Below are positions 31,536 to 64,000 of a DNA stretch of 64,000 nucleotides, piece after piece (the stretch's first letter is position 1; every line of letters begins with the position of its first letter). The DNA comes from Paracoccus sp. Z118 (GTDB lineage Bacteria; Pseudomonadota; Alphaproteobacteria; Rhodobacterales; Rhodobacteraceae). Made by a program: the position numbers and the translations under genes. The stretch is from positions 1 through 64,000 of the forward strand of contig NZ_JAHQZU010000010.1 of assembly GCF_019061185.1 (NCBI RefSeq), in the 5' to 3' direction. The notes beneath the pieces were generated by a model. It made no database searches. It saw nothing but the letters and a program-made list of their open reading frames with translations, and was not told where the DNA came from.

Positions 31536-32570
31536 TCAGGCGTTCACGTCTTCGTCGGCGTAGATGTCCGTCCACAGCTCTTCCAGCGGCGGTTCGGAGC
31601 TTTCGCGGGCGAAGTCGGCCGAGTCGTTCACGATGTCCTTGATCTCCTTGTCGATGGACTTGAGATCGTCGTCCGAGGCGTGGCCCCCGGACACCAGAAG
31701 CTGGCGCACATGCTCGATCGCGTCCTTCTCGTCGCGCATCTTCTGCACCTCCTCGCGGGTGCGGTATTTCGCGGGGTCGGACATGGAATGGCCGCGATAG
31801 CGGTAGGTCATCATCTCAAGGATATAGGGCCCCTTCCCCGCGCGGCAGTGCGCGACGGCCTTCTCGCCCGCCGCCTTCACGGCCAGCACATCCATGCCGT
31901 CCACCTGCTCGCCGGGAATGCCGAACGCCTCGCCCCGGCCGTAGAACGTCGTCGATTTGGTCGAGCGCTTGATGCTCGTGCCCATCGCGTAGCCGTTGTT
32001 CTCGATCACGAAGACGACCGGCAGCTGCCACAGCTGAGCCATGTTGTAGGTCTCGTAGATCTGCCCCTGGTTGGCCGCGCCGTCGCCGAAATAGGTGAAG
32101 GTGACGTTGTCGTTGCCCAGATACTTGTCGGCGAAGGCCAGCCCCGCGCCGATCGGCACCTGCGCGCCGACGATCCCGTGGCCGCCGTAGAAATGCTTCT
32201 CGCGGCTGAACATGTGCATCGAGCCGCCCTTGCCCTTGGAATAGCCGTCGATGCGCCCGGTCAGCTCGGCCATGACGCCGCGCGCCTCCATCCCCGAGGC
32301 GAGCATGTGGCCGTGGTCGCGGTAGCTGGTGATGCGCTTGTCGCCTTCCTTGGCGGCGGCTTCCAGCCCGACGACGACCGCTTCCTGCCCGATATACAGA
32401 TGGCAGAAACCGCCGATCAGGCCCATGCCGTAAAGCTGGCCGGCCTTCTCCTCGAATCGGCGAATCAGCAGCATGTCCCGGTAGAGCTTCAGCAGTTCGT
32501 CGCGCGGAATGTTGGGCGAGGCAGCGGATGACGAGGCTTCCGTCGTGTCGGCGGCGGGCTTTCTGGCCAT
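31536..32570 (-). CDS. pdhA: Pyruvate dehydrogenase E1 alpha subunit
   Basis: ThDP-dependent E1-alpha, 344 residues, decarboxylating pyruvate. [33 protein letters not shown] and the thiamine-binding [38 protein letters not shown] are clear, with the phosphorylation-loop-like [19 protein letters not shown]. The N-terminus is a short Ala/Ser/Thr-rich leader. It is first of pdhABC. The 69-nt gap to ftsB holds a 16-bp palindrome also found before maeB. Confidence 0.96.
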
Positions 32571-32592
32571 GCGGGCTCCTCCGGCTGGCGAT

Positions 32593-32608
32593 AGTTCAGC
32601 GTTAAACC
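32593..32608 (-). promoter_or_regulatory. Palindromic element GGTTTAACGCTGAACT upstream of pdhA
   Basis: On the minus strand, 22 nt before the pdhA ATG. It is a near-palindrome centred on AACG(C)T and matches the maeB element (63000-63015) at 14 of 16 positions. The spacer running into the GGAGG ribosome site is also alike. Probably an operator of a regulator of pyruvate metabolism; LacI-type central carbon regulators such as CceR of Rhodobacter are the best guess. Confidence 0.6.
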
Positions 32609-32639
32609 AACGCTAGCGCGAGAGAATGGAGGCCGCAAG

Positions 32640-62954: not shown

Positions 62955-62999
62955 CGGGCTTCCTTTCTCGCGCATCGGCCTTGGAGTGGCTGAAAAAGC

Positions 63000-63015
63000 G
63001 GTTTAACGTTGAACC
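63000..63015 (+). promoter_or_regulatory. Palindromic element GGTTTAACGTTGAACC upstream of maeB
   Basis: It is a near-palindrome, 14 of 16 bases symmetric, 23 nt before the maeB ATG in the 84-nt gap to divergent cdd. Its twin lies before pdhA, with the same placement and a related spacer into GGAGG. An operator shared by pyruvate-node genes is likely. Confidence 0.6.
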
Positions 63016-63038
63016 ATTACCGGCTGGAGGGCTTTCGA

Positions 63039-64000
63039 ATGGACGATCGGCGGCAGGACACGGCGCGGCAGGCGGCGCTGGATTATCACGAATTTCCCAA
63101 GCCCGGTAAGCTGGAAATTCGCGCCACCAAGCCGCTCGCGAACGGGCGCGATCTCAGCCGCGCCTATTCGCCGGGTGTTGCCGAAGCCTGCCTGGAAATC
63201 CAGGCCGATCCGGCCAATGCCGCCCGCTTCACCTCGCGCGGGAACCTCGTCGCGGTCATCAGCAACGGCACGGCGGTGCTGGGGCTGGGGAATATCGGCG
63301 CGCTCGCCTCGAAGCCGGTGATGGAAGGCAAGGCGGTCCTCTTCAAGAAATTCGCCAATATCGACTGCTTCGACCTAGAGGTTAACGAAACCGACCCCGA
63401 AAAGCTGGCCGCCATCGTCCGCGCGCTGGAGCCGAGCTTCGGGGCCGTGAACCTCGAAGACATCAAGGCGCCCGAATGTTTCGTGGTCGAGAAGCTGTGC
63501 CGCGAATCGATGAACATCCCGGTTTTCCACGACGACCAGCACGGCACCGCCATCGTCGTCGGCGCGGCGGCGACCAACGCGCTGCGCGTCGCCGGCAAGC
63601 GGTTCGAGGATATCAAGGTCGTCTCGACCGGTGGCGGCGCGGCGGGCATCGCCTGCCTCAACATGCTGCTGAAGCTGGGTGTCAGGCGCGAGAACATCTG
63701 GCTCTGCGACATCCACGGCCTCGTTTACGAAGGCCGCGAGATCGACATGAACCCGCAGAAATCCGAGTTCGCGCAGGCCACCTACCTGCGCGTGCTGGCC
63801 GACGTGATCGGCGGCGCCGACCTGTTCCTCGGGCTCTCGGGTCCGGGCGTGCTGACGCAGGACATGGTCAGGCGGATGGCCGATCCGCCGATCATCTTCG
63901 CGCTCGCCAACCCCCGGCCCGAGATCATGCCCGAGGATGCCAAGGCCGTCAGCCCCAACGCCATCATCGCCACGGGGCGCAGCGACTATCCGAACCAGGT
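63039..64000 (+). CDS. maeB: NADP-dependent malic enzyme (partial, runs off the window)
   Basis: Decarboxylates malate to pyruvate with NADP. The visible 320 residues hold [68 protein letters not shown], the malic-enzyme signature [15 protein letters not shown] and [16 protein letters not shown] (NADP loop). The MaeB family usually continues with a phosphotransacetylase-like domain (about 750 residues). That part is outside the window. The ATG has GGAGG 9 nt upstream. Confidence 0.93.

Follow-up and report, generated by a model that had tools for sequence, protein, structure and literature searches.

A conserved palindrome before pdhA, lpdA and maeB in Paracoccus as the predicted operator of a MarR-family protein

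Background

Why should two genes for enzymes that make or use pyruvate, lying about 30 kb apart, carry nearly the same leader? The question is raised by the window studied here, the whole stretch of 64,000 nucleotides of Paracoccus sp. Z118 DNA that was analysed. One of the genes, pdhA (31536-32570, minus strand; TIGR03182 above cut-off), encodes pyruvate dehydrogenase E1 alpha and is the first gene of the pdh cluster. The other, maeB (63039-64000, plus strand), runs off the window, which holds its start only; its product is a malic enzyme with malic and Malic_M domains, the best NCBIfam match being the NADP-dependent malic enzyme PRK12861 (509 bits, under the full-length cut-off, with 320 residues searched). 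A first-pass annotation had described a 31-nt leader common to both genes, reaching from a palindrome to the ribosome-binding site, and had proposed as its cause either a regulator acting on both or an RNA structure that both share at the ribosome site. The answer is of some general interest, as control of pyruvate dehydrogenase (PDH) sets the carbon flow into acetyl-CoA, and the Rhodobacteraceae are abundant in sea and soil.

The shared leader and its conserved core

The resemblance between the two leaders is as described. The pdhA leader (32608-32578, minus strand) and the maeB leader (63000-63030, plus strand) have 25/31 bases in common, each of the six differences is a transition, and the 16-mer GGTTTAACGYTGAACY found in both ends 22 and 23 nt ahead of the respective start codons. 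Exactly two exact copies of this 16-mer occur in the window, where 0.02 matches would be expected with up to two mismatches, and exactly two in the 3.6-Mb host genome. When two mismatches are allowed, the host genome yields three extra rows (two further places and the maeB site read in reverse), against two matches for the reversed control pattern. A relaxed form of the palindrome, TNGTTYARNNYTRAACNA, allowing at most one mismatch, matches the host genome only at pdhA and maeB, with no control matches. No crowd of random matches thus emerges from the genome-wide motif search, and conservation before both genes in relatives is strong across 37 same-genus genomes; the first-pass annotation had named a crowd of the first kind and an absence of the second as what would speak against its claim.

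What is conserved is shorter than the 31-nt leader originally proposed. The match over 31 nt is real, but the conserved unit is only a 20-bp palindrome, located at 32591-32610 (minus strand, TTGGTTTAACGCTGAACTAT) before pdhA and at 62998-63017 (plus strand, GCGGTTTAACGTTGAACCAT) before maeB. By eye, the stretch between the palindrome and the ribosome-binding site shows no resemblance between pdhA and maeB in relatives. The remainder of the match in the window is therefore attributed to chance together with the GGAGG motif, read from the sequence as the ribosome-binding site of both pdhA (32578-32582, minus strand) and maeB (63026-63030, plus strand).

Distribution of the palindrome in Paracoccus

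Across the genus, the conserved unit is the 20-bp palindrome ATRGTTTAACGCTGAACYAT, at least one strong copy of which is present in 35/37 genomes. A pattern allowing one mismatch was used to pick out places, which were then scored; since only places passing that pattern entered, the resulting counts are lower bounds. The 85 sites with a score of at least 20 (a count that includes the pdhA site G029:C6) all lie at one of three genes: pdhA (34 sites, counterparts of the window site being present in 34/37 genomes), lpdA (29 sites) or maeB (22 sites, in 22/37 genomes). The other 15 places fetched score at most 19.8. Within the genus, and for the pattern searched, the palindrome is thus restricted to these three genes.

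The distance between the downstream edge of the palindrome and the start codon is short: 18-35 nt at pdhA (33 measured), 19-32 nt at lpdA (29 measured) and 18-23 nt at maeB in 17/21 cases measured, the others being 36, 51, 87 and 88 nt. The host differs from most of its relatives in having no palindrome at its lpdA gene (L201 1200-1560, G000:C69), and the lpdA gene of one sampled relative, G083, has none either. Two genomes of the genus, G007 (100% complete) and G033 (81% complete), have no palindrome site at all, and no ortholog of the candidate regulator introduced below was found in them, the search for that regulator within the genus having covered four genomes (G000, which is the host, G083, G007 and G033).

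The strongest genus site away from the three genes (L044, G008:C1:2753651; score 19.8) reads TGGGTTTAACGATAAACCAA and lies between divergent open frames.

Overlap with predicted promoters

When the pdhA sites are aligned on the palindrome, a TTG is found 28 bp upstream in 23/33 of them and a TA 5 bp upstream in 27/33. The lpdA sites, aligned in the same way, have a TTG 17 bp upstream in 29/29 and a TA at position +6, which in this register is itself part of the palindrome. These are two registers of a predicted promoter with 17-bp spacing, its -10 element either touching the palindrome or lying within it; part of the lpdA signal may reflect coding constraint of the preceding gene. Within the window, the promoter predicted for pdhA reads TTGCGG-17-TAGCGT (-35 at 32633-32638 and -10 at 32610-32615, minus strand), with the -10 touching the palindrome and with both elements at the offsets just given for the pdhA sites of the genus. 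The predicted maeB promoter reads TTGGAG-17-TAACGT (-35 at 62981-62986 and -10 at 63004-63009, plus strand), with the -10 within the palindrome. Its -35 is weak, as TTG is found at any one offset in at most 3/22 of the relatives' maeB genes; the TA of its -10 is found in 22/22 maeB sites, where these are also palindrome bases. The palindrome is imperfect and keeps one orientation at its target genes across the genus, which overlap with the predicted -10 would explain.

A candidate regulator of the MarR family

A candidate for the protein reading the palindrome comes from two distant alphaproteobacteria (G039 and G045), in which tandem copies of a palindrome of the pdhA type precede an operon made up of an oxidoreductase gene (Acg family in G039) and a MarR-family gene. 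The host relative of this MarR protein, 42% identical over 137 residues, is encoded at G000:C139:115949-116395, and the host has a single match at 1e-10. Seven of 25 MarR_2 matches in the host are above cut-off, and of three host MarR proteins viewed (L081-L083) only L083 resembled, by eye, the MarR protein found by the palindrome in G039 and G045. Another of the three (L081, G000:C33:44764) is followed by a response-regulator-like frame, an arrangement recalling petP-petR of Rhodobacter.

The candidate carries a MarR domain, not a GntR domain (PF12802, 40.6 bits for a cut-off of 27; PF01047, 31.6 bits for a cut-off of 24.6), and its predicted fold is that of MarR (pLDDT 95.4). In a Foldseek search with this model, the nearest structures are MftR with DNA, Rv0880 and MarR with DNA, the top matches being MarR-family proteins, several of them with operator DNA. 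None of the NCBIfam equivalog models reaches its cut-off for this protein, and the only names given to its relatives, among the best 120 listed, are MarR family protein or helix-turn-helix protein. There is no cysteine in its sequence, which makes a thiol switch unlikely. In the host draft assembly its gene is on a contig other than that of pdhA and maeB. Adjoining a target, or being autoregulated along with it, is common in the MarR family though not required; here no palindrome was found upstream of the gene in any of 30 orthologs, the best scores there being negative. Orthologs are present in 263/296 of the Rhodobacteraceae genomes sampled, which nearly all represent one genus each.

The paralogous group through which the candidate was found, hereafter the sister MarR, adjoins the oxidoreductase gene in 20/20 loci (L342-L361). 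Upstream of 16/19 of these loci (L344 being left out because its contig ends there) is a palindrome agreeing with TRGTNCGATATCGNACYA at 15/18 positions or better, a count that is descriptive only, since this consensus was read from the same loci. Two or more copies matching at 14/18 or better are found in 15/19, a level that shuffles of the upstream regions reach in at most 5%. The sister palindromes have the same length as the pdhA palindrome and share its TRGT...ACYA ends, with inner bases that are usually CGATATCG. Palindromes of the pdhA type are seen at the sister loci of G039, G045 and G068, and a site of the strict pdhA type (16/18) near the sister MarR in 1/20 loci, that of G068. The common length and outer bases tie this MarR clade, by position, to this class of palindrome.

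Co-occurrence of MarR and palindrome in the Rhodobacteraceae

Over the whole family the palindrome takes the form ATAGTTTAANNTTAAACTAT, and it co-occurs with the candidate MarR. With a site defined by a score of at least 12 (a cut-off chosen after the scores had been seen, on a matrix trained on Paracoccus sites), pdhA has the palindrome in 21/22 MarR-bearing genomes versus 2/17 MarR-less ones (Fisher 8e-8). A likelihood test of correlated evolution between MarR and the pdhA palindrome on a PdhA-PdhB tree gives p about 5e-6, computed on a single tree in which many branches are weak, and with one fitted rate at its bound. A contrast test confined to well-supported branches has four independent pairs, which are never opposed, and is too small to be significant.

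"Without MarR" means here that no match at 1e-32 or better was found; G368, G327 and G143 have weaker, paralog-like matches. The 17 MarR-less genomes are all at least 96% complete with a readable pdhA, and the absence of the ortholog was rechecked in all 17. Left out of them were five MarR-less genomes less than 84% complete (G068, G093, G128, G138 and G156) as well as G145 (94%, with pdhA at a contig end) and G162 (a 39% paralog only). Four of the five incomplete genomes (G093, G128, G138 and G156) have a pdhA site, as would be expected if MarR were merely missing from the assembly.

The other two genes show the same pattern in the first 30 genomes. The lpdA palindrome is found in 7/10 MarR-bearing versus 0/8 MarR-less genomes (Fisher 0.004) and the maeB palindrome in 7/10 versus 0/15 (Fisher 0.0002), with one paralog-only row on each side of this comparison; three of the ten MarR-bearing genomes thus have no lpdA site, and three no maeB site. 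The alpha-type pdhA gene itself is missing from 15/33 MarR-less genomes versus 0/22 with MarR (Fisher 1e-4), the MarR-less status of three of these 15 (G262, G356 and G364) being taken from numbering gaps, outside a recheck that covered 9/12 such handles. Genomes with neither alpha-type pdhA nor MarR include G077, G107, G114, G126, G131, G154, G183, G185, G212, G219, G240, G262, G356 and G364; in the first six pdhA-less, MarR-less genomes, four have no lpdA-like match and two have only a 42-43% match.

Individual genomes depart from the pattern in both directions. G327 (99% complete, 360 contigs; L327, L308) has a perfect pdhA palindrome, and no MarR ortholog was found in it, only a partial MarR-like match with an internal stop. 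MarR is likewise absent from G216, which has a degraded pdhA site (score 17.3), and from G307, which has a weaker one (9.9, under the cut of 12, a score that shuffles never reached). Conversely, the MarR of G161 (L325) is diverged (47%) and sits among the same neighbours, next to what appears by eye to be the carbon-nitrogen hydrolase gene found there in the host, and the pdhA of this genome is without a comparable palindrome (8.0, 154 nt upstream).

Who reads the palindrome

We think it very probable that the palindrome is an operator read by one MarR-family protein, which blocks pdhA and maeB (and lpdA in most of the genus) and is released by a molecule of the pyruvate node. The palindrome ATAGTTTAANNTTAAACTAT would act as an operator lying over the -10/start region of these genes, and a winged-helix dimer of MarR (in the host, the product of G000:C139:115949-116395) would bind it. 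Judging from the position of the palindrome, the bound dimer would most likely block RNA polymerase until released by a small pyruvate-node molecule, for which pyruvate is a first guess. Under such a block and release, the route from malate to pyruvate to acetyl-CoA would rise and fall together. The proposal of a common regulator for pdhA and maeB is in this respect strongly supported, and it was right as far as it went; lpdA as a third target, the overlap with the promoter and the likely MarR protein had all been missed.

The direction of control could be the reverse, as MarR-family proteins can act as activators or anti-activators. This reading keeps the same protein and site, and its odds overlap with those of repression; we nevertheless consider it unlikely, as the palindrome overlaps the -10/start region instead of lying upstream of the -35. 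The reader could also be a different regulator that disappeared from the same lineages as this MarR or, in part, a MarR paralog. The co-occurrence comparison did cover MarR alone, G327 has the site with only a partial MarR-like match in place of an ortholog, and the paralog group uses related palindromes. Such a reader would, however, call for a second gene with the same pattern of loss, and one would have to put down to coincidence that the sister MarR is independently associated with palindromes alike in their outer bases; we judge such a reader distinctly unlikely.

A LacI-family reader of the palindrome, be it CceR (GapR) or a protein resembling PckR, we rate as very unlikely. LacI operators need a central CG, and the Paracoccus sites have one; in several other genera, however, the centre is AC, AT or AG. 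Three proteins of the host genome do exceed the cut-off of Peripla_BP_3, typical of LacI regulators, but a motif at two genes only in the host is unlike a global regulon, and the distribution of MarR accounts for the sites in a comparison that took in MarR alone. In P. denitrificans, MaeB is less abundant when cceR is missing (PMC11323563), but the regulons of GapR and PckR are given as glycolytic, gluconeogenic and TCA genes, and the main text of that report names neither pdhA nor maeB (PMC4052901). The other cause proposed at the outset was an RNA structure shared by both leaders at the ribosome site, which would act on translation; the fixed orientation in the genus and the short distance to the start codon would agree with it. 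This proposal found no support and we regard it as highly improbable: each leader folds in its own way and neither more favourably than its shuffled versions (z 0.66 and 0.10), with no stable shared fold; in relatives, conservation between the genes does not extend to the part beside the ribosome site; transcription is predicted to begin at the palindrome or beyond it; and the orientation is explained by the -10 overlap.

The proposed reading by MarR can be put to the test, since it names one protein, one site and three genes, and the MarR-less genomes provide natural controls. On a wider scale, we judge it on balance probable that the Rhodobacteraceae own a dedicated MarR-family regulator of PDH, found in 263/296 genomes, in which one palindrome would couple malic enzyme, PDH E1 and E3. 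This regulator would sense a metabolite of the pyruvate node, stand in for PdhR and tend to be absent where there is no alpha/beta-type PDH.

Comparison with known systems

MarR-family regulators use palindromic operators, and their usual targets are efflux or degradation genes. The modelled host protein resembles MarR, MftR and Rv0880 in its winged-helix fold and in size, and would differ from them in its predicted targets, which are core pyruvate enzymes. The sister MarR next to the Acg-family FMN oxidoreductase is related in sequence and site (the 42% identity and similar palindromes described above); it differs in being linked to its presumed target, in having at least two operators in 15/19 loci and in the inner bases of its palindromes.

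CceR/GapR is similar in exerting central carbon control in the same lineage, and it affects MaeB in P. denitrificans (PMC11323563). It differs in belonging to the LacI family and in having a global regulon, for which the main text of PMC4052901 names neither gene. A functional parallel is PdhR of the gammaproteobacteria, a GntR-family regulator described as dedicated to pyruvate dehydrogenase genes including lpdA (aceEF-lpdA; PMC5343134). As with PdhR, the predicted targets here are PDH genes including lpdA; unlike PdhR, the candidate belongs to another protein family, its predicted targets include an E1-alpha-type PDH and malic enzyme, and its gene in the host lies off the contig of the pdh genes. 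A search of largely open-access literature gave no MarR protein tied to pdhA, lpdA or maeB in Rhodobacteraceae among the matches listed. Dedicated PDH regulators are already known, and what would be new here, within the literature matches listed, is a predicted MarR regulon with this operator on PDH.
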